DNA from: Archaeoglobus sulfaticallidus PM70-1 | GTDB taxonomy: Archaea; Halobacteriota; Archaeoglobi; Archaeoglobales; Archaeoglobaceae | Direction of reading: 5' to 3' | NCBI RefSeq assembly: GCF_000385565.1 | Contig: NC_021169.1 | Coordinates: 1,222,571 to 1,286,570, forward strand | Length of the DNA stretch: 64,000 nucleotides | Part shown: positions 40,275-63,678 of the stretch, one piece after another | Layout of the letters: every line of letters begins with the position of its first letter | Position numbering within the stretch: the first letter of the stretch is position 1 | Translations under genes and position numbers: made by a program | The notes under the pieces: model-generated | Told to the model about the DNA's origin: nothing | The model's database searches: none | What the model saw: only the letters and a program-made list of their open reading frames with translations

Positions 40275-40580
40275 ATGGGGAGGAGCGTTGCGAGTGTCAG
40301 AATTCAGCTGAACGGTCTAATAGCCAAAATAGAGAGGGCTAAAAGCCTGATGAAGAGGGAGGAGGTTGTGTATGCCGACAGAGTGATAGAGGCCATCAAG
40401 AAGAGGTATTCCGTCTGCTACTACGCTTTTGACTCGGCTGAAGAGGCGGCCCTCTTTTCCCTAACTATAGAACTTATGAGGCTGATTGACCATGCTGATT
40501 CTGGATGTTTTTCCGTCGAGAAAAGGAATCAATGTCTGGCTGAAAAGGAGAGGTGCGAGGAAAGTCTTCATCAGACATGA
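40275..40580 (+). CDS. PolB2-operon small helical protein
   Basis: 101 aa from the ATG at 40275 behind GGAGGTG. Helical, with KIERAKSLMKREEVVYADRV and AALFSLTIELMRLIDH. Its last 29 codons overlap the polymerase start in another frame. No family recognised; probably a small subunit or partner of the polymerase. Confidence 0.6.
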   Translation: MGRSVASVRIQLNGLIAKIERAKSLMKREEVVYADRVIEAIKKRYSVCYYAFDSAEEAALFSLTIELMRLIDHADSGCFSVEKRNQCLAEKERCEESLHQT

Positions 40581-42438
40581 AGATTATTTCTTGGTTCACT
40601 TTCCCGACAGGCATAAGCATTCAGCGCTTATTGAAGACCTGGAGAGCAGGTATAGAGTTGAAGAGGCCACAATCAGAACCATATTCGGGGAGAAAGAGGG
40701 GTACAGAATTTCCGCTCCGAGAAAGGTTGCAAGGCTGATCGAGATACAGGCTCCGGAGGCTGAGCTCTTCAACGCTGACATCAGAAGGGAAGTAGATTAC
40801 CTTGCCGGCAGAAACCTGACATGCATGGCAGAGCCTTTCGAGGACAGGTTCAGCCTCAAACTTCCAGAGCTGGAAGTTTTTGAATGCAGGGTGAGGTTCG
40901 ATGATCCGCTCAGGCCTTCAGAGGTTGTGGCCATTGAAAGCAAACCCTTCAGGGCTGAGGGGAGGGAAAGGATAATCTTGGAGGAGTTCATGAATCACCT
41001 CGACTCGAAAAATCCCGATGTCGTTGTGATGGATAATGCAGACATTGCTGCAAGGCTGATGTTTGAGAAATGCAGAAAGTACGGAATAGACTTCACCCTG
41101 AGCAGGGGGAAAATAAGATTTCTCAAAGCAAACAGCTACTACAGCTACGGAGCGGTAAAGTACAGAAAAGGAGCACTGATTCCTGAGGGCAGGATCCTCA
41201 TCGATTCGACTTCCTTCGCTTATCAGGAATACGGACTGAACGGTATCCTCTTCACCTCAAAGCTCACAGCCCTTTCAGCAAATCTGACCTCCCGCTTCAC
41301 CCCCGGAACATTGATCTCGAGCTATGAAGTCTATGAGGCCCTGAACAGGGGAATTGCTGTTCCCTACAGAAAGTGGAACGCTGAAACTCCAAGAAAAGTT
41401 GAGGAGCTGAGGGAGAAGGACAAGGGCGGCCTGATCCTCCAGCCGGAGCCGGGAATTTATGAGAATGTTGCCCAGCTCGACTTCACCTCCATGTATCCGA
41501 CAATAATCGTGAAGTATAATTTGAGTCCCGAGTCGATAAGTGGAAGAAGAGGTTTTCTGTCAACAATTCTGAAGCCGCTTCTCGGTCTCAGGATAAAGAC
41601 GAAGAGGATGAAGAAGAGCAAGCCGGAAGTTGCGGGAATTGATACAGCTCTGAAGTGGATGCTGGTAACCTGTTTCGGATATACGGGATTCAGAAATGCC
41701 AAATTTGGCAGCATAGCCGTGCACGAGGCAATAACAGGGATTGGCAGGGAGATTCTGCTGAAGAGCATTAAAGTGGTAGAAGCGGGTGTGGATGCTGGTG
41801 TAGAGGTTATCCATGCGATGGTGGACAGCATCTTCGTCAGAAACCCCAACGGAAAGCTGAAAGAAAAGATAGAGAGGGAAACAGGAATGCTCCTGGATGA
41901 GGACAGGTACTTCTGGATAGTGTTCCTCCCAAAGAAGGACGGATTTGGCAATGCTGCCAGATACTACGGTTTGCTTGAGAGCGGAGAGCTAAAGCTGAGA
42001 GGAGTTATGGCGAGAAAGAGAGACACGCCAGAATACATAAGAAGATCCCAGCTCGAGATGTTCAGCCTGCTCAGAAAGGCAAGGACGATTGAGGAACTCT
42101 GCACTCTTGAAGAAAAGCTAAACCGAATTTACAGAAAATACCGGACGGAGATGAGACACGCCAATCCTGAAGAGTTCCTCATCAGGAGGAGGATAAGCAG
42201 AACCTCCTACACAAGAAGCTCGCTTGAGGCATCAGCCGTTAAGGAGCTGAAAAGGCTTGGGGTTGAGCTCTTTCCGGGCATGGAGATAGAGTATGCTGTG
42301 GTGGATTTTTCGAGGAAAGCAGTCTCAGTGAATCCTGACAGCATCGACATAAACTACTATACAAGAATGCTGGAAAAGGCTTATGAGGAGGTTCACTTCT
42401 CTATCAGATGTGCAGTGGAGCGCGTTCAGAAATCCTGA
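40492..42438 (+). CDS. polB2: Family B DNA polymerase of the PolB2 (atypical) group
   Basis: 648 aa from the ATG at 40492. Motif A is LDFTSMYPTIIVKYNL (Asp330). The motif B region is KWMLVTCFGYTGFRNAKFG. Motif C, normally D-T-D-S, reads M-V-D-S (Asp445), so one metal-binding Asp is missing. The N-terminal exonuclease motifs are not recognisable. These are the marks of archaeal PolB2, long regarded as inactive but reported in crenarchaea to act in damage tolerance. It lies in one operon with two small genes and a Cdc6-like ATPase. Confidence 0.85.
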   Translation: MLILDVFPSRKGINVWLKRRGARKVFIRHEDYFLVHFPDRHKHSALIEDLESRYRVEEATIRTIFGEKEGYRISAPRKVARLIEIQAPEAELFNADIRREVDYLAGRNLTCMAEPFEDRFSLKLPELEVFECRVRFDDPLRPSEVVAIESKPFRAEGRERIILEEFMNHLDSKNPDVVVMDNADIAARLMFEKCRKYGIDFTLSRGKIRFLKANSYYSYGAVKYRKGALIPEGRILIDSTSFAYQEYGLNGILFTSKLTALSANLTSRFTPGTLISSYEVYEALNRGIAVPYRKWNAETPRKVEELREKDKGGLILQPEPGIYENVAQLDFTSMYPTIIVKYNLSPESISGRRGFLSTILKPLLGLRIKTKRMKKSKPEVAGIDTALKWMLVTCFGYTGFRNAKFGSIAVHEAITGIGREILLKSIKVVEAGVDAGVEVIHAMVDSIFVRNPNGKLKEKIERETGMLLDEDRYFWIVFLPKKDGFGNAARYYGLLESGELKLRGVMARKRDTPEYIRRSQLEMFSLLRKARTIEELCTLEEKLNRIYRKYRTEMRHANPEEFLIRRRISRTSYTRSSLEASAVKELKRLGVELFPGMEIEYAVVDFSRKAVSVNPDSIDINYYTRMLEKAYEEVHFSIRCAVERVQKS

Positions 42439-43465
42439 AGTGTTCGAACCTGACTACATTCCCGAAATCCTGGCATTCAGAGATGCCCAGCTCAGGGCTC
42501 TCGCATCAAATCTGAAGCCCATGCTGTCGGGGATGAATGCCGTCGATACTGTCTGCATAGGTCCTCCCGCAACCGGCAAGACTTCATGCGTGAGAAAGAT
42601 CATCTCATCTGCCGAAATCAGGGCTGGATACGTGAACGCCTCCCTCGTAAGAACCAGATCGGAACTCGCAACCGGGATATTCAAAGCGGTAACGGGGCTA
42701 ACTCCACCGAGGAGAGGGGTTTCATTTTCCGAGCTTATGGGCAGGGCGTTTGACAGTGCGGATTCCCTCCTGATAGTCATAGATGATGCCACAGCTCTGA
42801 ACGAGAAAATACTGAATGAGGTGATCGTTTACGTGTGCAGAATGAAAGAGATGGGGTATAAAGCGGGACTCTGGTTGGTCTTCACTGATTCCAGGTATGT
42901 ATCCCTCCTCTCAGCAGATACAGGATCGATTTTCCATCCCGATGAGGTCTTCTTCCATGCCTACGGATACGATGAGATTTTTGAGATCCTCATGGAGAGG
43001 GCCAAAGCCGGATTCTCTGCAGGTGCTTTTGGTGAGGATGTAATCGACTTCGCAACAGGTATGGCCTTTGAAACTGCAGACCTGAGACTTGGACTCTACA
43101 TCCTGAGAATGGCAGGCATTATTGCAGACAGGGAGGGGAAGGAGAGAATAGGGGTCGATGATGCCGAGAAAGCTTACGAGAAGGGGAAGTGGCTGTTTCT
43201 GACCAGATCACTGTCAAATCTCAGCAGGGATGAGAGAAGATTGCTCAAGGCAATTTACGAGCTGGATGCAGAAACAACGGGTGAGCTCTTTGATGAGGTG
43301 AGAGACTGGCTTTACTACGAGAAGTTTCACAGGATGCTCGCCAAGCTGGAGAACCTCAGGCTGATCGATTTGAAGCTTGAATACCGGAAAGGCAGAACCA
43401 GAAGGATTTTCAGAAGGTTTGAGAGGGATGTTCTGCTGGATGCACTGGAGAGGGTGAGTAGCTAG
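42383..43465 (+). CDS. Orc1/Cdc6-family ATPase
   Basis: 360 aa. Walker A GPPATGKTSCVR, Walker B LLIVIDDATAL, and a C-terminal winged helix (LSRDERRLLKAIYELD through KLENLRLIDLKLEYRKG). Orc1/Cdc6 proteins bind origins and load the MCM helicase. This one overlaps the PolB2 gene by 56 bases and is divergent from the common form, so it may serve the PolB2 pathway, not the main origin. No origin repeats are evident beside it. Confidence 0.82.
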   Translation: MRRFTSLSDVQWSAFRNPEVFEPDYIPEILAFRDAQLRALASNLKPMLSGMNAVDTVCIGPPATGKTSCVRKIISSAEIRAGYVNASLVRTRSELATGIFKAVTGLTPPRRGVSFSELMGRAFDSADSLLIVIDDATALNEKILNEVIVYVCRMKEMGYKAGLWLVFTDSRYVSLLSADTGSIFHPDEVFFHAYGYDEIFEILMERAKAGFSAGAFGEDVIDFATGMAFETADLRLGLYILRMAGIIADREGKERIGVDDAEKAYEKGKWLFLTRSLSNLSRDERRLLKAIYELDAETTGELFDEVRDWLYYEKFHRMLAKLENLRLIDLKLEYRKGRTRRIFRRFERDVLLDALERVSS

Positions 43466-43494
43466 TTTGACTTAAACATATTTTAGAAGCCGTT

Positions 43495-44355
43495 AATGAG
43501 CTGAAAAAAGAAGGGCTCACTTCCCCTTCCTTAAACTTCGGGAAAAGCAGCGTATCACCAATTTCAATTTTCGCATCTCTTATCTCATGAATCAGCATGT
43601 TCATTTTGCACAAAGCGTAGGTTGTGGCATTTGCTTCCTGACCAAACAGAAACAGCTTCTTGGCTTCGTTTCTACCATACTTCTCTTCAACATGCTCGTA
43701 AGCCTGAATGAGCATACCACCTGAGCCGCAAGCTGGGTCGTAAACCGATTCCATTGGTTTGGGATTGAGAATTTTGATAAGCAGTTTAACAACTTCTCTC
43801 GGCGTGTAAACTTCCCCTTCTTTTGCCTTTTGTGGAGCGAAATAACGGAGAACCCATTCGTAAGCATCTCCAAGGACATCAGGAGAGACATTGGCAAGGG
43901 GTGTTTTACTGAATAGCTCAACGAGCTGTCTGAGTATCTCTATGTTCTCCCTGTTTGTCGTGAACTCTATGAAGTCGAATCTATCAACGACTCCCCGCAA
44001 GTCAGGATTCATCTCTGCAAGTTTTTGAAGGCATTTGCAAGCCTTTCGGGCAGCTTGCTAACATCCTCTCTTATGTTGTCCCACAATAGCTCTTTTGTTA
44101 GTGCAAAATCGTGGTATGTTGTGCTCATTGCTTCTTTTTCAGCTTCTTCTTCACTCAAACCATCTTCTATTGCCTCCCTCTTTGCAAGTTCGAACTCCAT
44201 TTTCCATTTATCGCTTATCCTCTTCAGGAAGAGGAGAATGAGTATGTACTTGTAATCCACTCTCGTCCTTATTAAATCGGCAGCTGTTTGAGCAATCTTT
44301 CAAGCTCCTCTCTTGTAACTTCCTTCTCAAAGCCAAAATCAGATAGTGTTACCAT
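43495..44355 (-). pseudogene. Type I restriction methyltransferase subunit (HsdM) relic 2
   Basis: It begins at 44355 with MVTLSDFGFEKEVTREELER, then in other frames YILILLFLKRISDKWKMEFE, MNPDLRGVVDRFDFIEF and EGEVYTPREVVKLLIKIL. The SAM motif DPACGSGGMLIQAYEH is intact. After PKFKEGE the frame enters unrelated DNA next to the cdc6 stop, so the second half, including NPP(Y/W), is gone. Two frameshifts lie near 44270 and 44010. The sequence differs from relic 1, so it comes from another type I system. Confidence 0.85.
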
Positions 44356-44418
44356 GCAAACTCATTTTTTTGCTAATGTTTTTTAACTTTGTTTGTTTTA
44401 ATTATACATGGTGGTTCC

Positions 44419-44859
44419 ATGGCATACTGGCTCTGCATAACAAATGAAGAGAATTGGAAGGTAATTAAAGAGAAAAATGTATGGGGTGTTCCTGAAAGGC
44501 ACAAAAACACCATTGCAAAGGTTAAACCTGGCGATAAACTCCTGATTTACCTGAAGCAGGAAAGAATTAAAGATGATGTCAAAGAGCCACGAATCGTTGG
44601 TGCTTATGAAGCAACGTCTGAAGTCTTTAAAGACTCTAAAAGAGTGTTCAAAACACCACCTGGCATGGGCAATGAAACATTTCCTCTGAGAATAAAGCTG
44701 AAGCCCGTAAAAATATTCGAAAAGTCAGTTGAATTTAAGCCACTAATTCCAAAACTGAAGTTTATAACAAACAAGAAGAAGTGGAGCGGGCACTTGATGG
44801 GCAAGGCAATGAGGGAGATTCCTGAGGAAGACTATAAACTCATCGTTAGCAGCGTTTAA
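44419..44859 (+). CDS. EVE-domain protein (EVE-3)
   Basis: 146 aa from the ATG at 44419. It has the same EVE core as the other copies ([50 protein letters not shown]). It is divergent from hsdM relic 2 and lies 36 bases before a CoiA-like nuclease gene on the same strand. Together they could form a reader and cutter pair. Confidence 0.9.
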
Positions 44860-44895
44860 TGGTTTTCTTCCCACGAAAGAGGCTTAGTGGGTGCT

Positions 44896-46248
44896 ATGCC
44901 TGAAGTGAAGTATGACATAGCACTTGACTCTGAAGGAAAATACGTCTCCATCCTAAATGCAGAAAAAGGCTTGAAATACTACTGTCCAGAATGTAAAGGA
45001 GAATTTATAGTCAGAAAAGGAAAAATCAGAGCATGGCATTTTGCACATAAAGGCGGTATACCGCCAAGTTGTAGCGGAGAATCAGCAAAGCATGCTTTGA
45101 TGAAACACAAATTGTATTATCTCTTAAGCAACACTGGCAAGCTGTATGTTGTTTACCACTGTGAGCGATGTGGGAGTTACCATTATAGAGACATCAAGGT
45201 GAATTATGTGCGTATCGAGGAGGAAATAGGAAGTGTTAGACCTGATGTATCCGTAATTTATAAAGCTAACAAAAAACTAGCAATCGAAGTTGTTCACAGA
45301 AACCCTCTGGACGTAGAGAAAGAGGGTGTATTCAAGAGAGAAGATATTAGTTTTCTGGAAGTCTGGTGTGAAGACAACTCAAGATTTCTTGAAGAGGTTG
45401 TTGAGATCAAAATACCAGTATTTGTTCCGCAGGATGGTTATAGCCTCGTCCACGAATTGGTCCAAGAAATTGGCGACAATCGTGCTTTGTTATTCTATAG
45501 AAAGTGTCGCCTATTGGATAGAGAATGTCTTCTAGATGTCTTAAAGTCTAGGAATTTCAGGATAATTGACAACATGAACATCAAGAGCTGGATAAAAAAA
45601 GTGAGAGCAAAAGGTAAATGTGGTACAATTTTCAACGTTGAACGGGAAAATGGAGTAATATTTGCAAAAACCAAGGAGCAGGGAAGTGTGGTACTAGCAC
45701 CCAATGTCTATCAAGGAGATTGTGTGTGGGGTGTTCCTAGTTACATGCTCACACGCCGAGATTCTCTCAGCGAACCCTCTGTTGAATGGGCCATATTCGT
45801 GGGTAAGATGTATGGATTGTTAGTTTTCAGCGAAGAACTTTTTGAAGACTTTGATGAACTCATTGATGAAGTTTTTAATTACGCGAATAATACTAAAATG
45901 AATACTCTATTGCCATTTCTAGGCATTGATTCACCTTCTGAGTACGAGTTCGAGTTAGGTGCGTTCAAACAGATTCTCGAAAGTGTCTCTGAATTCTATG
46001 GATGTTACACAGTATCTGCTCAAAGGAAATTCATAAAACCAAAAAACAAACATAAAAGGCCAAAAGAAAACTCAATTATCGAAACCATTATTTTGAAGAC
46101 TTTAGGAGAGCTAGATAGGCCCACTACAGCCTACGAGTTGAGTATCATGACAAAGATTCCAATATGGGATGTTTTAATAGCTCTAAACAAACTTGTTTCC
46201 TCAGGAGAAGTTTGTCAGATAAAGGGGTACTTCTCAATAAAGAAGTAA
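44896..46248 (+). CDS. CoiA-like nuclease with zinc finger and C-terminal winged helix
   Basis: 450 aa from the ATG at 44896. The N-terminus is CoiA-like: YYCPECKGEFIVRKGKIRAW and HFAHK (Cys30, Cys33, His48, His51). A second Cys pair is CERC (89-92). The nuclease core has RPDVSVIY (Asp117) and LAIEVVHRN (Glu131); the usual Gln or Lys two residues after Glu is Val, so catalysis is uncertain. Residues about 380-450 look like a winged helix (TTAYELSIMTKIPIWDVLIA). It probably acts on DNA. Context with an EVE gene suggests modification-dependent restriction (inference). Confidence 0.68.
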   Translation: MPEVKYDIALDSEGKYVSILNAEKGLKYYCPECKGEFIVRKGKIRAWHFAHKGGIPPSCSGESAKHALMKHKLYYLLSNTGKLYVVYHCERCGSYHYRDIKVNYVRIEEEIGSVRPDVSVIYKANKKLAIEVVHRNPLDVEKEGVFKREDISFLEVWCEDNSRFLEEVVEIKIPVFVPQDGYSLVHELVQEIGDNRALLFYRKCRLLDRECLLDVLKSRNFRIIDNMNIKSWIKKVRAKGKCGTIFNVERENGVIFAKTKEQGSVVLAPNVYQGDCVWGVPSYMLTRRDSLSEPSVEWAIFVGKMYGLLVFSEELFEDFDELIDEVFNYANNTKMNTLLPFLGIDSPSEYEFELGAFKQILESVSEFYGCYTVSAQRKFIKPKNKHKRPKENSIIETIILKTLGELDRPTTAYELSIMTKIPIWDVLIALNKLVSSGEVCQIKGYFSIKK

Positions 46249-46697
46249 TAATGTCCACCAACTATAAAAACGGGTAATCCCAACTACTTTCTGTCCTTTG
46301 GATTGAGTTTCGTATTTCACATGTCATCTTGAGCACAAAAAGACATGGTACAATGTCTGAGGACCTCCAAATTTCCTTTATTTCTTGTGAGGATAACATG
46401 TAATTTTGTCAGAAACCATGTCTTCTCTCAGGAAAAGTAATGAGGTAGTTATTAACCGTAAATCAAAGGTTAAATCTAATCATAATATCGGGGTGGACCC
46501 AACCTTTGAGTTTGTGCCCATTTTGAATAGGATCTGCTGCATTTACATGTGTAACTAACTTCATCTTACTGGGCTAAAAGTAATCAAAGACTACAAACTA
46601 AAGATGATGTACATAACTTTATTTTTATCCCTTTTCTCATTTACTCATCTGTTGATAACCCAAATACAGGATACTCATTACTTAAAACTTCAAATAC
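46249..46697. other. Intergenic stretch without a supported gene
   Basis: About 450 bases between the CoiA-like gene and the SHOCT gene (both ending here). I see no tRNA, repeat array or gene; short AT runs near the ends may serve as terminators. Confidence 0.5.
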
Positions 46698-47342
46698 TTA
46701 CAACATATCCAGCAATTTCTTCTTCTTTTCCTCAAACTCCTCATCGGTAAGTATACCTGCATCGTGTAATTCTTTCAACTTCTTTAGCTTTTCAAAAACA
46801 TCAGCTTCCTCAGAACTCCTGTAGTTTCTCTCTATTTCTGATTTACGTCTGTTTAGTTCTGCAAGTTTTTCATAAAGGGCTTCAGCCCATTCCTGCGTTT
46901 TGTCTCTTATGAGTCCTTTAATCTGAAATCTTGGAGCGTGTTTGATTCCATTCTCATCCATGTACGGAATAACCAACAGGTTTAGATTTCCTATCTTTGA
47001 AATAAATCCCCCTCCAGCTCCAACTCCTATAGGTATCGGTGAAAAAGGGATTGGGGTTGCCATCCCGCCACCGATTGCTGTTGCATCACCTGAATCTTTC
47101 TCAACAAAAGTAACGTTATCAACCAAAATGCTTTCGAATGGGATGATTATCTTCCATCTTTTGGATTGTCTTAAAGCAGATTTTTCGAACTCTATTCTAT
47201 CGTGAAACAGTCTTAACCAGCCATTAACTCCTGTTTGTGTAGTACCACCAATATCAAAAAATCTACCTGACTTTAGGGGATATTTTAGATGTCCACCAAA
47301 ATAACGGGCAATGTCTTGTTTTAGCGGTTTTTCTTCTTCCAT
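46698..47342 (-). CDS. PH-like domain plus SHOCT domain protein
   Basis: 214 aa from the ATG at 47342. Residues about 10-160 show a beta-rich pleckstrin-like domain (GWLRLFHDRIEFEKSAL, IIIPFESILVDNVTFVE) interrupted by a Gly-rich loop (AIGGGMATPIPFSPIPIGVG). The end is a SHOCT helix pair (KLKELHDAGILTDEEFEEKK), an interaction or oligomer motif. Divergent from the NucS-like gene, with 86 bases between starts. Confidence 0.72.
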   Translation of the reverse strand: MEEEKPLKQDIARYFGGHLKYPLKSGRFFDIGGTTQTGVNGWLRLFHDRIEFEKSALRQSKRWKIIIPFESILVDNVTFVEKDSGDATAIGGGMATPIPFSPIPIGVGAGGGFISKIGNLNLLVIPYMDENGIKHAPRFQIKGLIRDKTQEWAEALYEKLAELNRRKSEIERNYRSSEEADVFEKLKKLKELHDAGILTDEEFEEKKKKLLDML

Positions 47343-47428
47343 AAAACCCACCTGTTGTGTTTGTCTAATTTCAATTACAAATGCAAACATATTTTAAGAA
47401 TTTTGATTCTGTCTCTTATGGTGGTTTG

Positions 47429-48229
47429 ATGGCCACATTAAAGAAAGTTAAATTGAGTAACGAAAAGGAATTACACTCAATAATTGAAAAAGAGCTTGAT
47501 GCACTGGAAGAGGGTTTGGAACTTCTCCAATATGAATTTGCAACATCAAAAGGAATTCCAGATTTCCTTTGTGTGGATAGCGGTGGAAGATTGGTAATTA
47601 TCGAGGTAAAAGTTGGTGAAGATGAGAATATACTGTTTCAGGCCCTGAGGTACTACAGCGAAATAAGCAAAATCAAGTATGTAGTTGCAAACATGTTCCC
47701 AGACAAAAAAATAAAACCAGAACTGGAGCCGAGAATAATTCTAATTTCAGAGAGATTTTCCGACGATTTGAGAAGGTTAGCTACACTTGTAACCCCAGAA
47801 GTGGAACTTTACGAATACGCTGTCCTCCAAGATAAAGATGGAAAAATGGGAATATATTTCCATCAAGTAACCATACCTAAGATTGAAGAGTTGCCCCCAG
47901 CTCCTCCGAGTTTTGATGAGCTTGAGAACTACATTACAGACGAAAAGTTAAGGGAGGCATACAAAATAGCTATAAGCTCTATTGAAAGCATAGCTGATGA
48001 CATAGAGAAGTATCCCACCAGAAGCTATGTTGGATTCAGATTTAGAGGTAGATTAATCGGCTATGTATATCCCCACAGGAAGTCTTTTGATGTTGGAACT
48101 ACAGTATTAGATGAGAATGGCAGAGTAATAGAAGATTCATTCATTAGAGTCGAGGAACCAGAAACCGATATCAGTGACATTCTGGAAAAAATCAGAAGAA
48201 ACTACGAAATATTAAAACAGAGGCGTTAA
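47429..48229 (+). CDS. NucS/DUF91-like PD-(D/E)XK nuclease
   Basis: 266 aa from the ATG at 47429. The nuclease core GIPDFLCVDSGGRLVIIEVK carries Asp45, Glu59 and Lys61, the full PD-(D/E)XK set. The following region (ALRYYSEISKIKYVVANMF, RIILISERFSDDLRR) matches the NucS/EndoMS C-terminal domain. The N-terminal DNA-binding domain of true NucS is absent, and an extra 90 residues follow. It may cut branched or mismatched DNA. Divergent from the SHOCT gene, possibly sharing control. Confidence 0.75.
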   Translation: MATLKKVKLSNEKELHSIIEKELDALEEGLELLQYEFATSKGIPDFLCVDSGGRLVIIEVKVGEDENILFQALRYYSEISKIKYVVANMFPDKKIKPELEPRIILISERFSDDLRRLATLVTPEVELYEYAVLQDKDGKMGIYFHQVTIPKIEELPPAPPSFDELENYITDEKLREAYKIAISSIESIADDIEKYPTRSYVGFRFRGRLIGYVYPHRKSFDVGTTVLDENGRVIEDSFIRVEEPETDISDILEKIRRNYEILKQRR

Positions 48230-48236
48230 TATATTT

Positions 48237-49314
48237 TCACCAGCTGTATTTATCCACAAGCTCACCCTCTGCATTGTAGAGATAAGCTGTGTCGTGGTCG
48301 TTGTTCCAGACTGGTGATTTTCTATTCCAGTGCAGATGCCCATCATAATCTCCTCCAATTCCTGTGTGTACAGTAACCGTTCCCCCAGCATCAAGAGCCA
48401 CGTTCGAGAACGTGTATGTGAAACCAGCTTCATCCCTCAGCCTCCAGCCTTCGAGGTTAATGGAAATGCTTCCTGAGTTTACAATGACAATGTACTCATC
48501 GTTCAGCATGTCTCTGTCGTCAACATCAGGCCCTCCTGCATCGTAGTGGACTTCAACAATCTCAATAGATATTGCTCCAGACGGCGTTGCAGTTGCAAGT
48601 ATGCTCCACAGCCCTCTTCTCTCTCTCTTTGCTTCCTCTTCAAGCTGCAAGTAGTAACTCTCCTTTTTGAACTCTCCCTCAACGTAAACCCTTGCGTATC
48701 CCCCCTCAACGAGCATCGCCGTGAAGTCTGTACCATTTTCTAGGTAAACGTAGGCAAGAAGTCGACCATAGTAGCCAGTGAATCCAGCAGTCTCGTCAAA
48801 TTCTATGTAAACGTATTTTCCTTCAATTATACTCTTGGTAAACTCGTACGCTTTCCACCCCCCATTCTGCGAGATACTCGAGGTCGTCAATCCCATCGTA
48901 CTCTCCTAGCTTGTTTTTCTCAGCACTCTTTTCAGGTGTGTCAACCCCGAGCATTCTCACTCTTCCTCAGCTGCCGTCTGAGAAGATAACATCAATCGTA
49001 TCTCCATCAACAACATTGGCAACTTCAACCTTGTATTTTACTCCAAATTCCAGATTTGCAGTCTTCACTTCTGAAGGGGTCGGAGGAGGAGTCAGAATGA
49101 GAGTCGGGGATGTTTTAGTTGGGGCTGGTGAAGGAGTATAAGGTGTTTTCTGGATTGTTGTAATGGGTTATCTGCCTAGGAGGAGTTGTGATTAAGGTTT
49201 TGGTGTAGGAGTCTGTGTAATCTCTGGGGGAAGAGATTTGGCCCCATGCATTGATTGAACACAGCCAGAAAATAGGATTACAAGAATTGCAATCAGAATA
49301 ATGAGCTTCCTCAT
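48237..49314 (-). pseudogene. Secreted thermonuclease plus lamin-tail lipoprotein, broken copy 2
   Basis: Reading down the minus strand: signal peptide MRKLIILIAILVILFSGCVQ with lipobox Cys, a Thr/Pro linker broken by two stops, EVANVVDGDTIDVIFSDGS followed by an in-frame TGA, RVRMLGVDTPEKSAE, then a frameshift near 48860 into a long intact piece (YEFTKSIIEGKYVYIEFDE, GYYGRLLAYVY, SYYLQLEEEAKRERRGLW). A lamin-tail domain ends the gene (NDHDTAYLYNAEGELVDKYS). Same design as the broken gene at 27938-28900. Confidence 0.85.
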
Positions 49315-55234: not shown

Positions 55235-56536
55235 TCACCCACGCTTAACAACAATCTTCCCGTTTGGAAGCGTTGCAACAAACTCCCAGCCCGAGTTGAT
55301 CAAATTCTCTGCCTCATCAATGTCAACCACCCTCTGGCTATTCTGCCCACCGTTCTGACCATCGTTCTGTTCGCCGTCAAGCATCTTTTCCCTGAAGAAC
55401 TGTATGAACTCCTCCTCGCTCATGGAAGCTAGATCCATAGATTCAATATCCTCCTCGCTCACTCCTGCAATCATCAGCATGGTCCTTCTATATTCATATC
55501 TAAGCTTATCTGCTGCGCTGTTGAAACTGCTCGTCATTTCCGTCTCCAAGTAGACAGAGGCTCTTGCATAAGATTCTCTCATGTCCTCCACGAGATCTTC
55601 AGGCAGCCTGTTTCTGTTGGTGGTGTACTGGTGCTCTATGTCCCCCTTGTGACCCATCCAGAACACTCTGTAGTCTCTGATAACTAAGCCCTTGGACTCA
55701 GCCAGCAGGAGCTGGGTGTCGAAGTAGTGTCTGAGCACATAGGGACGCCAGTCAAATCCAGCCCTTCTTATGGCCTGCCTGATAATGTCTCCAATGTTTA
55801 TGGTTGAGATGTGTCTGCCTCTAAATGACGCAGCCCGAGGAGTTATGATTGGTGAGTTTCTGTCCATCTTTTCACCCATCCTCATCCTTTCCTCAAGGTA
55901 TTCTTTCAGGTAAGTGCATCCTTCTTCACCAAGAAACGTGAAGTACTGGTGTCCCACCTTGCTTATGGCAGGCCTGACAACCACCATCGTAGGAACTACT
56001 TCGAACTCAACTTCTCCGTTTGAGACGGTCATTTCGGGAAAGTCCATGACCTTCAACCCGTCAATCCCCCTATAATTCCCCAGAACCTGGATTCTTAGTC
56101 CTGAGAATGCTATGAGGGAGCATGCAACTCTCGCCCTTTTATCTCCAGAAAGCAATACTGATTTAAGCTCTTTCTGAGTGGGTACTCTCTCGTTAAATGT
56201 GTTAGGGTGTTCGTGGGAGTCCCTGATCTTGATATTCACTCTGAGTTCTCTATCATTGAACCTGAGCCAAGACTTCACCGACTTGATGAACGAGTAGATG
56301 TAGCTCCCTGCATACTTCTCCTTTTCCATGATTCCGATAAAGTCAAGAATCAGGTTTTTCAATGATCTATCGTCCATATTCAGCAGCTTATTCGGTTTTA
56401 CACCCATTATTTCACAAAATCTCCCCAATCTTCTAAGATTAACATCTGCGGTTACTTCAGAACCTCTTGAGAGGTTCATATACCACCTCTTCAAATCGGG
56501 ATCCTTCAAGAGGTGGGCATACTTGCCTCGATCCAT
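55235..56536 (-). CDS. Archaeal tyrosine recombinase (integrase)
   Basis: 433 aa. The N-terminal domain is KYAHLLKDPDLKRWYMNLSR. The catalytic set includes Arg in FSGLRIQVLG, a Lys strand (KVGHQYFTFLG), RPYVLRHYFDTQLL (Y in place of the usual His of H-x-x-R), WMGHKGDIEHQY and the nucleophile Tyr near HQYTTN. The tail is acidic and Gln/Asn-rich. A related but truncated gene lies at 63319-63678. The tRNA-3'-like segment just upstream (56576-56609) is a candidate attachment site. Confidence 0.85.
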   Translation of the reverse strand: MDRGKYAHLLKDPDLKRWYMNLSRGSEVTADVNLRRLGRFCEIMGVKPNKLLNMDDRSLKNLILDFIGIMEKEKYAGSYIYSFIKSVKSWLRFNDRELRVNIKIRDSHEHPNTFNERVPTQKELKSVLLSGDKRARVACSLIAFSGLRIQVLGNYRGIDGLKVMDFPEMTVSNGEVEFEVVPTMVVVRPAISKVGHQYFTFLGEEGCTYLKEYLEERMRMGEKMDRNSPIITPRAASFRGRHISTINIGDIIRQAIRRAGFDWRPYVLRHYFDTQLLLAESKGLVIRDYRVFWMGHKGDIEHQYTTNRNRLPEDLVEDMRESYARASVYLETEMTSSFNSAADKLRYEYRRTMLMIAGVSEEDIESMDLASMSEEEFIQFFREKMLDGEQNDGQNGGQNSQRVVDIDEAENLINSGWEFVATLPNGKIVVKRG

Positions 56537-56991: not shown

Positions 56992-59238
56992 TTAGTTAGT
57001 AAAATCCACTGAAGGAAAATCTTTTCTTATAATTACAATATCGGGATAAGTTCTCTTTAGACCTTCATACGTCTCTTGGTATCGGGTAGAAGAGACTCGA
57101 ACATCAAAAAGAACAATGATCAGGTGGTTGAAATGTTGTTTGTATCTCATTACTTTATCAGCTATAGTTTGCAGCTCTTGTGAGCCGGTAGGCCCTTTAA
57201 CTTCGATGGCTATCGAGGTATTTTTATCAATAAATACAACAATGTCTGGTCTGGATGCTCCTCTTTGATACTCCATTATAGTATTGGGAAATCTCGATTT
57301 TAACCAGGCAAAAAGTGTATCTCGATAACCTTCTTCTCTTGCATATCTTTTTGGAGGATGGAACTCTTCTATTGCTTGAACCACTTCGGCAAAATAGCTG
57401 TATCTTTTTGCCTCTTCTGTAGTACCCCAAACCCACTTACCATCTAAAGTTTTGTACTTGACGTATCCTTTAGATTTTAGTTCTTCTTCTTTTCTTTTGA
57501 TTCTTATTTTCTTTGCCGTGTACACTGAAGCCGCGAGCACAACAAATCCTAGGTAAAAGAGTGCATTATGTATTGTTGGTGCAAAGTCTTGATCATTCGG
57601 GACTCCATCTTTATCTACATCCAGTGCAATGGATTCTGTTTTGGTTGCAAGATTGTATGCAGTTTCATAATTTCCTGCGTTGAATTCTTGTTCAGCTTGT
57701 TTAAGCAGTTCTTCAGCTTCAGAAACGTCCAGTCCTTTTGACTTTGCTAATGAAATATTTTCTTTTGCGGAGATGATAGTATTGAGAGCATTTTCTGCTT
57801 GATCTGCTGTTTGCAATGCCAGTTCTCTAGCTTTCTCTGCGAGGGATTTAGCGTCAGAATATCTTTCGTCGTTGAAAGCTTGTTCTGCCTGTGTAAGCAA
57901 GGATTCAGCTTCTGAAACATCAAATCCTTTTGTCTTTGCTGATGAGATTACTTCTTTTGCAGAGTTGATTGCACTATTGGCTATTACCCTCTCCTTCCAT
58001 GCGAGCTTTGCTATATAAACATCGCCCACCTCGGAAGATTTAATATATCCGACAATTAAATATCCTTCATCTTTAGTTTGCTGTAATGACCAACCTATTT
58101 CATTTCGTTTAGTACCAAATGTTTTCTGCCATTGCAAGTTTCCATTAGAATCCGTCTTTATGAGATAAATATCACCAATACGTGATCTTAGTTCTCCAGT
58201 CCATCCTACAATTATATATCCTCCATCTTTTGTCTGCTGGACAGAATAGGCCTCATCGATATCATTACTAAATGTCTTCTGCCATTGCAACTTGCCATTG
58301 GCAGACGTTTTGATGAGATAAACATCACCCGCCCCAAATGACCATGAAAATCCAGCAATAATATATCCTCCATCACTTGTTTGCTGAACTGAATAAGCTT
58401 CGTCCCAACCTCTGCCTCCAAATGTCTTATACCATTGCAAATTACCATAAGGGTCTGTTTTTATTAAATATACATCACCGTTATGAAAGAGATCTCCAAA
58501 TGATTTGGTAGTCCCTACAATTATATACCCTCCATCACTAGTTTGTTGGATTGATCTGGCCCAATCATTCTCACGCCCTCCAAATGTCTTGTACCATTGC
58601 AAATTACCATTTGCATCTGTTTTTATAATATAAACATCTTTACCGCCCTCTCCTAATGATGTCGTATATCCTGCTATTATGTATCCACCATCATTAGTCT
58701 GCTGGACTGAGTATGCAATATCATCACTACTGCCACCGAAAGTCTTCTGCCATTCCAGATTTCCATTTGCATCTGTTTTTATTAAATAGACATCATAACT
58801 GCCCTTTCCAAATGAAGAAGTAACTCCAGCAATAATATATCCTCCATCTTTAGTCTGCTGGACAGAATAAGCTTTATCGAAATATTTTCCTCCAAATGTC
58901 TTCTGCCACTGCCATTGCAGCTTATTATATTTGGCATCTATCTTTATGAGATAAACATCGTAATTACCTACTCCATATGAATCAGTCCATCCAGCAATAA
59001 TATACCCTCCATCACTTGTTTGCTGAACTGAATAAGCCCCATCATCACTACTACCTCCAAGAGCTATTTCCCACTCTATTACCATCTCTGAAGCCGAAGC
59101 TACTGGGACTAGAAGTGGTATTACTATCAGAAAGTATAATATTGTAACCTTACGAGTTATCTTTAAAGTATTCAATTGTGACATTATTTCTAAGTCTACA
59201 ATTTCATTTATTAGTTTTACCAAATTCTCTTTTTGCAC
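56992..59238 (-). CDS. Outside beta-propeller - membrane helix - cytoplasmic PD-(D/E)XK nuclease
   Basis: 748 aa. Residues 29-50 are a signal or anchor (VTILYFLIVIPLLVPVASAS); an in-frame ATG at codon 19 (59184) is an alternative start. Residues about 55-405 hold seven repeats of the form GGYIIAG...DVYLIKTDANGNLQW..TFGG, a seven-bladed propeller. Two AKxKGFDVSEAE helical repeats follow (about 425-535), then a calcium-type DVDKDGVPNDQD loop. A membrane helix spans about 558-576 (NALFYLGFVVLAASVYTA), followed by a basic stretch. The last 170 residues contain RPDIVVF (Asp665) and AIEVKG (Glu679, Lys681), a complete PD-(D/E)XK centre. The order places the propeller outside and the nuclease inside. 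Confidence 0.8.
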   Translation of the reverse strand: MQKENLVKLINEIVDLEIMSQLNTLKITRKVTILYFLIVIPLLVPVASASEMVIEWEIALGGSSDDGAYSVQQTSDGGYIIAGWTDSYGVGNYDVYLIKIDAKYNKLQWQWQKTFGGKYFDKAYSVQQTKDGGYIIAGVTSSFGKGSYDVYLIKTDANGNLEWQKTFGGSSDDIAYSVQQTNDGGYIIAGYTTSLGEGGKDVYIIKTDANGNLQWYKTFGGRENDWARSIQQTSDGGYIIVGTTKSFGDLFHNGDVYLIKTDPYGNLQWYKTFGGRGWDEAYSVQQTSDGGYIIAGFSWSFGAGDVYLIKTSANGKLQWQKTFSNDIDEAYSVQQTKDGGYIIVGWTGELRSRIGDIYLIKTDSNGNLQWQKTFGTKRNEIGWSLQQTKDEGYLIVGYIKSSEVGDVYIAKLAWKERVIANSAINSAKEVISSAKTKGFDVSEAESLLTQAEQAFNDERYSDAKSLAEKARELALQTADQAENALNTIISAKENISLAKSKGLDVSEAEELLKQAEQEFNAGNYETAYNLATKTESIALDVDKDGVPNDQDFAPTIHNALFYLGFVVLAASVYTAKKIRIKRKEEELKSKGYVKYKTLDGKWVWGTTEEAKRYSYFAEVVQAIEEFHPPKRYAREEGYRDTLFAWLKSRFPNTIMEYQRGASRPDIVVFIDKNTSIAIEVKGPTGSQELQTIADKVMRYKQHFNHLIIVLFDVRVSSTRYQETYEGLKRTYPDIVIIRKDFPSVDFTN

Positions 59239-59874: not shown

Positions 59875-60321
59875 TTGTGCGTTAGAAATAAGTACGTTAA
59901 CAGGGTAAAGGAAAATCTGCTAAGGTTTAAGAATTCCCTGAATGGAGATCTCAAGGAAAAAGTAAAAGAGACAGAGAAAGAAATAGATGGATTCGTCAAA
60001 GAGATGGATTCAAATGGCTACTGGAGAGTTGTTAGGTTCTTCAGAAACATTCTCTTGTTTGCCTACAAAAAGCTCGAAGGAGTAAGCATTCCATGGCACA
60101 ACAACTGGATGGAGGGGCTTGTGGGTGAAATAAGCAAGAGAATGAAGAACAAATGGATGTCGTGGAGTGCAAAAGGAGCAAAGAATTTACTCAATCTGTT
60201 GCTGAGAAGGTATGCTAAAAAGATAGGTATGAGTTGTTTATTTGTAGGCTGGTTGGGAAAGGTTATACGGTTGAGATTAATTCCACGTATGATGAAACGG
60301 GACCAATATTGTATCATCTAA
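59875..60321 (+). pseudogene. C-terminal fragment of a DDE transposase (ISH6-like or similar)
   Basis: About 148 codons. IPWHNNWMEGLVGEISKRMK followed by NKWMSWSAKGAKNLLNLLLR is the conserved end of a family of archaeal transposases. The N-terminal DDE part is absent. It abuts the previous relic head to head near 59850. The family name is uncertain. Confidence 0.65.
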
Positions 60322-63318: not shown

Positions 63319-63678
63319 TTAGGTGATAATGAACTTAAATTTGATGGGAGAAACAGCCAGTTGTACAGAGAATAAATGGGCTCTTAACTCTCTGTTGTTG
63401 AAGCTAAGCCACGATTCTATGGCCTTGATGGTTAAATAGATGTAGCTCCCTGCATAACCCTTCAATTCCATATCTGTTATATAATCTAAAATCAGGTTTT
63501 TGAGAGCTTTATCATCCATTTTTAGCAAATCCTTCGGATTGAGTCCAACTCTCTCGCAGAAGTTACTGAGTCTTTTTAAATTAACATCAGCAGTAACTTC
63601 AGCCCCTCTTGAAACATTTACATACCATCTACGTACATTTTCATCCTCCAGCAGGGCTTTGTATTTTTTCTTGCCCAT
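63319..63678 (-). pseudogene. Truncated archaeal integrase
   Basis: 119 codons. The first 100 closely follow the N-terminal domain of the integrase at 55235-56536 (RRWYVNVSRGAEVTADVNLK, LLKMDDKALKNLILDYITD, YAGSYIYLTIKAIESWL). After NNRELRA the sequence diverges and stops. The catalytic domain is missing, so this marks the edge of another, now lost, element. Confidence 0.8.

Follow-up and report, generated by a model that had tools for sequence, protein, structure and literature searches.

A surface beta-propeller joined in one chain to a predicted cytoplasmic PD-(D/E)XK nuclease domain in Archaeoglobus sulfaticallidus

Introduction

To cut DNA where it enters is, for a cell, a recently demonstrated means of telling foreign DNA from its own. 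In E. coli, SNIPE (PD-lambda-1), a membrane-bound GIY-YIG nuclease, cuts phage DNA during injection and is toxic without its membrane anchor (PMC13190303). In Kiwa and Zorya, sensing at the membrane is coupled to the binding or cleavage of DNA where it enters (PMC12904381). In archaea, COG4741 (TVN1166) combines a membrane helix with a restriction-like domain predicted to be cytoplasmic, and a 2005 superfamily study proposed that it guards against foreign DNA, with uptake or salvage as further options (PMC1189080). RmuC also has a restriction-like domain and an N-terminal membrane helix (PMC1189080), and the RmuC family includes the Shield anti-phage system (PMC10270631).

We looked at a protein of Archaeoglobus sulfaticallidus PM70-1 encoded in the window, that is, the whole stretch of 64,000 nucleotides analysed. 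Membrane-bound nucleases are already known; the joining of a propeller and a nuclease in one chain is seen only here. If its family cuts DNA on entry, this would be the first such protein to our knowledge whose chain includes an external recognition domain. Among characterised systems, SNIPE is the nearest analogue. Both have a membrane anchor and a cytoplasmic nuclease (both predicted here) and a variable N-terminal region including transmembrane segments, the nuclease part being the best conserved. However, SNIPE is bacterial and consists of GIY-YIG and DUF4041 with a small periplasmic N-terminus, whereas the Archaeoglobus protein is archaeal, of PD-(D/E)XK type, lacks DUF4041 and carries a large propeller ectodomain. 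No Pfam match to GIY-YIG or DUF4041 was found in it (at E<=1 for DUF4041). By analogy, it would work most like SNIPE without being a member of that group.

COG4741 is likewise archaeal, with a membrane helix and a restriction-like domain, but is a minimal YraN-type core of 120 residues (E-(V/I)D-E(V/I)K) with a single N-terminal helix and no ectodomain. Compared through Pfam and not through the COG profile, neither the window protein nor 31 members of its family matched a COG4741-type model. RmuC differs by a long coiled coil and belongs to another sequence family than the window nuclease; its domain was matched in none of the same proteins by Pfam or PADLOC. In Kiwa and Zorya, sensor and effector are separate proteins, unlike in the one-chain Archaeoglobus protein, and PADLOC found neither KwaA/KwaB nor ZorA-ZorD in this protein or in the neighbours scanned. 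Finally, the Archaeoglobi SBBP/delta-60 surface propellers and the CylK propeller are of the same propeller type, with no nuclease in the examples read.

Architecture of the protein

The gene is a minus-strand open reading frame of 748 codons (59238 to 56992 of the window) with a GTG start, present in one copy in the PM70-1 genome. An alternative start, the ATG at codon 19, would give a more usual signal-peptide length. The fold, the catalytic residues, the predicted topology and the family described here were all computed. The preliminary description of this DNA had read the frame as a chain running from a signal/anchor through seven blades, helices, a calcium-type loop, a membrane helix and a basic stretch into a nuclease, and had taken this as an external recognition domain wired through the membrane to a DNA-cutting one. 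The frame is real and the observation as a whole was confirmed, its interpretation being supported in part. The full-chain AlphaFold2 model (mean pLDDT 87) gave the same order of domains (Table 1), with a DxDxDG loop before the membrane helix. At the N-terminus, a hydrophobic segment at residues 31-47, the second most membrane-like stretch of the 748-residue chain, is followed by ASA|SE; by inspection, the signal/anchor is most plausibly a signal peptide that is cleaved off.

Table 1. Features of the propeller-nuclease protein and their positions in the window
Feature	Residues	Position in window	Strand	Basis or remark
Signal peptide	19-50	59089..59184	-	Counted from the likely ATG, codon 19
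Seven-bladed beta-propeller, SBBP/delta-60-repeat type	52-414	57997..59085	-	Predicted extracellular
Helical stalk, two related helical repeats	415-544	57607..57996	-	Modelled helices, pLDDT >90
DVDKDGVPNDQD loop, calcium-binding type, DxDxDG	540-551	57586..57621	-	Sequence; weak TSP_3 match, E 0.18
Short transmembrane helix, ALFYLGFVVLAASVYTA	559-575	57514..57564	-	Insertion energy, charge asymmetry
Basic juxtamembrane helix and KYKTLDGKWVWG beta-hairpin	576-606	57421..57513	-	Common to hairpin-type homologues
PD-(D/E)XK nuclease-type domain	607-748 (modelled core 607-739)	56995..57420	-	Predicted cytoplasmic
Catalytic motif Asp665 ... Glu679-Val-Lys681		57196..57246	-	Residue check; 31-row alignment

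The seven-blade propeller announced from the sequence was also recovered, as the model placed 28 strands in residues 52-414, that is, seven blades of four. The blade motif S[VIL]QQTxDxGY[IL]I[AV]G is repeated seven times, starting at residues 70, 125, 177, 229, 283, 332 and 384, and these regularly spaced motifs explain the DNA repeats D1 and D2. The best solved match was the CylK propeller (Foldseek E 2.4e-24). Among profiles, NF047494 matched at E 8e-9 and TIGR02608 at E 2.2e-15, the latter with a score of 56 bits, under its curated cut-off of 76.5. Profiles, model and Foldseek agree on repeated 50-residue blades closing a propeller, as in the SBBP/delta-60 type.

Only residues 559-575 and the signal peptide have a favourable insertion energy in the whole chain. 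The 17-residue transmembrane segment gave the lowest approximate value, below zero, with a simplified in-house function and not a published predictor. Lys/Arg account for 1 of the 20 residues before this helix and for 9 of the 20 after it, and the modelled helix (560-589) runs on into a cytoplasmic helix. A surface protein of a related genome (G029), ending in a short basic tail, has a similar stalk, loop and anchor. At locus L027, the loop is kept as DIDQDGIPNEKD and the C-terminal anchor aligns with the transmembrane helix. From the charge bias and the likeness to the G029 anchor, the propeller is predicted to be outside and the nuclease inside; since the helix is short, this topology remains a prediction. 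The same arrangement had been proposed in the preliminary description, and the charge bias and the homologous hairpin proteins described below support it. Both domains could instead lie outside, as a secreted or surface-bound nuclease or as a polymorphic-type toxin for other cells. The short membrane helix would fit, and secretion was once proposed for some archaeal PD-(D/E)XK proteins (PMC1189080). However, nine Lys/Arg just after the helix, an insertion energy below zero and the inside placement of the same domain in the hairpin proteins make this highly improbable, as does the lack of an adjoining immunity gene: the gene downstream encodes an integrase, and the nuclease stands behind a transmembrane helix.

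The continuous chain, with its large ectodomain, rigid helical stalk and calcium-type loop leading straight into the transmembrane and cytoplasmic helices, would also suit a true receptor, in which binding of a ligand or virion to the propeller changes the stalk and the transmembrane helix and switches the nuclease on. The uniform base composition along the gene is in line with it. Contrarily, single-pass helices rarely switch without dimerisation, and very similar SBBP-type ectodomains in the class stand on ordinary anchors with no effector, so that we find such switching distinctly improbable.

The nuclease domain

The last 195 residues were modelled separately from an alignment of 31 homologous rows. 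The isolated domain reached a pLDDT of 95.4, with the order helix, three strands, helix, strand, helix, strand, and its nearest solved folds by Foldseek were SfsA, EndoMS/NucS, XPF and T7 endonuclease I, all PD-(D/E)XK. Probabilities went up to 1.00 with a best E-value of only 1.4e-3, probably because a long membrane helix was part of the query. D665, E679 and K681 are invariant in the 31 rows, and E635 is nearly so. This combination of a restriction-like alpha-beta core with acidic and (D/E)xK residues makes us confident of a PD-(D/E)XK fold with intact catalytic residues, as judged from the model, and from these we infer DNA cleavage. The restriction-like core and its three catalytic residues, already named in the preliminary description, were thus borne out.

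Sequence searches of solved structures gave no match. Weak Pfam matches were seen in the family (VRR_NUC, HSDR_N, DpnII-MboI, MTES_1575, CoiA_nuc and SfsA) and were not used for identity by family name alone. The viral-protein family phrog_28707, annotated 'nuclease', was matched at E 1.5e-11 and matches 20 of the 31 rows.

A mainly archaeal family of membrane-tethered nucleases

Searches of Halobacteriota genomes, GTDB contigs and viral contigs recovered the family of the domain, which is patchy and mainly archaeal and has no Pfam model above cut-off. On the GTDB contigs, an alignment query gave 29 loci and a single-sequence scan gave no matches. Members were found in Woesearchaeota, Aenigmatarchaeota, Altiarchaeota, Micrarchaeota, Asgard archaea, Thermoplasmatota and Nitrososphaerota, as well as in methanogen relatives and a few bacteria. 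At E<=1e-6, 26 of 394 Halobacteriota genomes were positive, a count that takes in broader superfamily hits. Several copies are interrupted by stops or frameshifts.

A two-helix membrane hairpin precedes the nuclease domain in at least 17 homologues (loci L003, L011, L012, L058-L061, L064, L065, L067, L069, L070, L073, L075, L079, L084 and L087). Lys/Arg are commoner on both flanks than in the loop in 12 of the 14 hairpins measured, which points to a cytoplasmic nuclease. Many homologues share a juxtamembrane segment, KGLVKFxDRFGNExWGxPxEV, that matches KGYVKYKTLDGKWVWGTTEEA of the window protein; its modelled strands (592-596 and 602-606) align to KGLVKFVDRFGNERWG of L059 and others. Three copies of the segment KGLVKFxDRFGNExWGxPxE are present in L065. 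Other members have a Cys/His-rich segment, a TPR domain or a DnaJ domain, or are without a membrane helix. One protein from a viral-collection contig (L087:4089-5420) joins a DnaJ domain, several transmembrane helices and the same nuclease domain. In a genome of the same genus as PM70-1, a divergent relative of the nuclease (L006:1429-2751) comes immediately after a small protein in which inspection shows an HNH-like motif. A mainly archaeal family of membrane-hairpin nucleases without a Pfam entry deserves a name.

In the tree, the window domain pairs with that of JdFR-19 (Methanomicrobia according to NCBI) with support of 96/91, ahead of the Archaeoglobaceae copies. JdFR presumably stands for Juan de Fuca Ridge. 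PM70-1 originates from the same ridge (PMC3703591). This pairing across archaeal classes, together with the common place of origin, suggests that the nuclease domain was horizontally transferred. No match and no close relative were found in plasmid and phage collections. Along the gene, GC3 is even (0.24-0.30), against 0.40-0.56 in the neighbouring genes, and this even, low value suggests that the entire gene is foreign and was not recently put together at this site. The whole propeller-nuclease gene was thus probably acquired.

Recurrence of the fusion

None of the other homologous frames read carries an ectodomain. Here, an archaeal surface protein that brings its own membrane anchor stands in place of the two-helix hairpin. 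The join of propeller and nuclease was not found elsewhere among the loci examined and is known from one genome, recurrence outside Halobacteriota being covered by one 8-residue pattern scan. Where the C-terminus of an Archaeoglobi SBBP-type propeller protein could be read, it consisted of an ordinary anchor or an extracellular domain, and no nuclease was present. As for the preliminary description's question whether the domain order recurs, the membrane-tethered nuclease is widespread while the propeller fusion was found only here. One long open frame from the wider genome search (G171, 812 aa) proved to be no receptor fusion: it encodes the small subunit of RFC, interrupted by an intein nuclease.

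A fusion known from one genome, with integrases and a transposase remnant adjoining and with low GC3 over a gene that was probably acquired, could be accidental or near-neutral, or its nuclease fold could only bind DNA, with no present function. We consider this rather unlikely, as the 748-codon frame is intact with all catalytic residues kept, and as the join keeps both the topology and the juxtamembrane hairpin, which a random fusion would seldom do.

A putative nuclease of the entry site

Our best explanation, to which we give a probability of about 0.45, is that of a single-pass surface protein with a cytoplasmic PD-(D/E)XK tail, a membrane-tethered nuclease of the entry site positioned by its propeller. 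The nuclease and its juxtamembrane hairpin would be drawn from the mainly archaeal family that hangs under the membrane by a two-helix hairpin, a surface propeller with its stalk and anchor having taken the place of the latter. Action would be spatial: membrane tethering would keep the enzyme apart from the chromosome and let it cut DNA that is crossing the envelope, as SNIPE does in E. coli. Instead of sending a conformational signal, the propeller would most likely serve to place the nuclease, for which the S-layer, a surface partner and a virus particle come into question. We infer this cutting, its site and the role of the propeller from several lines. The layout of the family is that of SNIPE with another fold and, along with the 2005 proposal of a guardian role for COG4741, this leads us to regard cutting at the entry site as the most likely action of the family, with the propeller serving for positioning or recognition. 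The confident fold, the invariant triad, the topology, the hairpin homologues, the patchy distribution and the broken copies favour this explanation, as do a closest relative of another class from the same ridge, the nuclease-rich, integrase-flanked neighbourhood described below and the SNIPE precedent. We counted against it the lack of a consistent defence partner, the single fusion, the 17-residue helix and the lack of a phage or plasmid relative.

If the family acts alike, archaea would have an independent version of entry-site cutting with a different nuclease fold, and a direct question opens, namely whether it is the ectodomain that selects the viruses to be cut. In a one-protein receptor-nuclease, the propeller would recognise a virion or a cue at the surface and by itself position or activate the cytoplasmic nuclease there. 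Such a protein would parallel SNIPE in archaea with unrelated building blocks, and would belong to a broad archaeal class of PD-(D/E)XK gatekeepers tethered to the membrane. We hold this to be unlikely.

Genomic surroundings

A tyrosine integrase (55235-56536) lies directly downstream of the gene, in line with the integrase element that the preliminary description had placed next to it. Another integrase, two EVE proteins, a type I methylase fragment, a CoiA-N protein, a NucS-type nuclease and an SNase-LTD protein lie within 16 kb. The region is a variable, nuclease-rich and integrase-flanked one. It had been called a defence island, which is a loose term here: scattered nucleases, a methylase remnant, EVE domains and integrases are present, but no complete known defence system was recognised by PADLOC and profile scans of the neighbours. 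Around the homologues, genes are mixed housekeeping ones with a few restriction, AAA or candidate-defence genes, as a count not set against background, and no consistent defence partner was found in these neighbourhoods.

Such surroundings also bear on a housekeeping or nutritional role, in which the membrane nuclease would process incoming DNA, recycle extracellular DNA or serve membrane repair or segregation, as suggested for CoiA- or RmuC-type proteins. That the family weakly matches CoiA_nuc and SfsA agrees with it, as do the CoiA_N protein and the SNase-LTD nuclease 8-14 kb off, and uptake or salvage was among the options of the COG4741 authors (PMC1189080). However, the very patchy distribution and the broken copies indicate accessory rather than housekeeping genes, and no competence or DNA-import gene is adjacent. 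We see this role as unlikely.

The window has no tRNA gene and hence no tRNA-linked att site, and no direct repeat marking the ends of an element was found between 50 and 64 kb. At 43410-48896, an N6-methylase fragment, an EVE protein, a CoiA_N protein, a SHOCT protein, a NucS_C-type nuclease (PADLOC candidates PDC-S11/S18) and a protein with SNase and lamin-tail domains are clustered. At 40489-43465, a DNA polymerase B frame, which also gives a match of homing-endonuclease type, overlaps a Cdc6/Orc1-type ATPase; these are replication genes of what may be an integrated element. Just upstream of the gene, a C-terminal remnant of an ISH6-type transposase is found at 59875-60321. At 63319-63678, a frame of 119 residues resembles the N-terminus of the 55235-56536 integrase and looks like what remains of an integrase after splitting or truncation.
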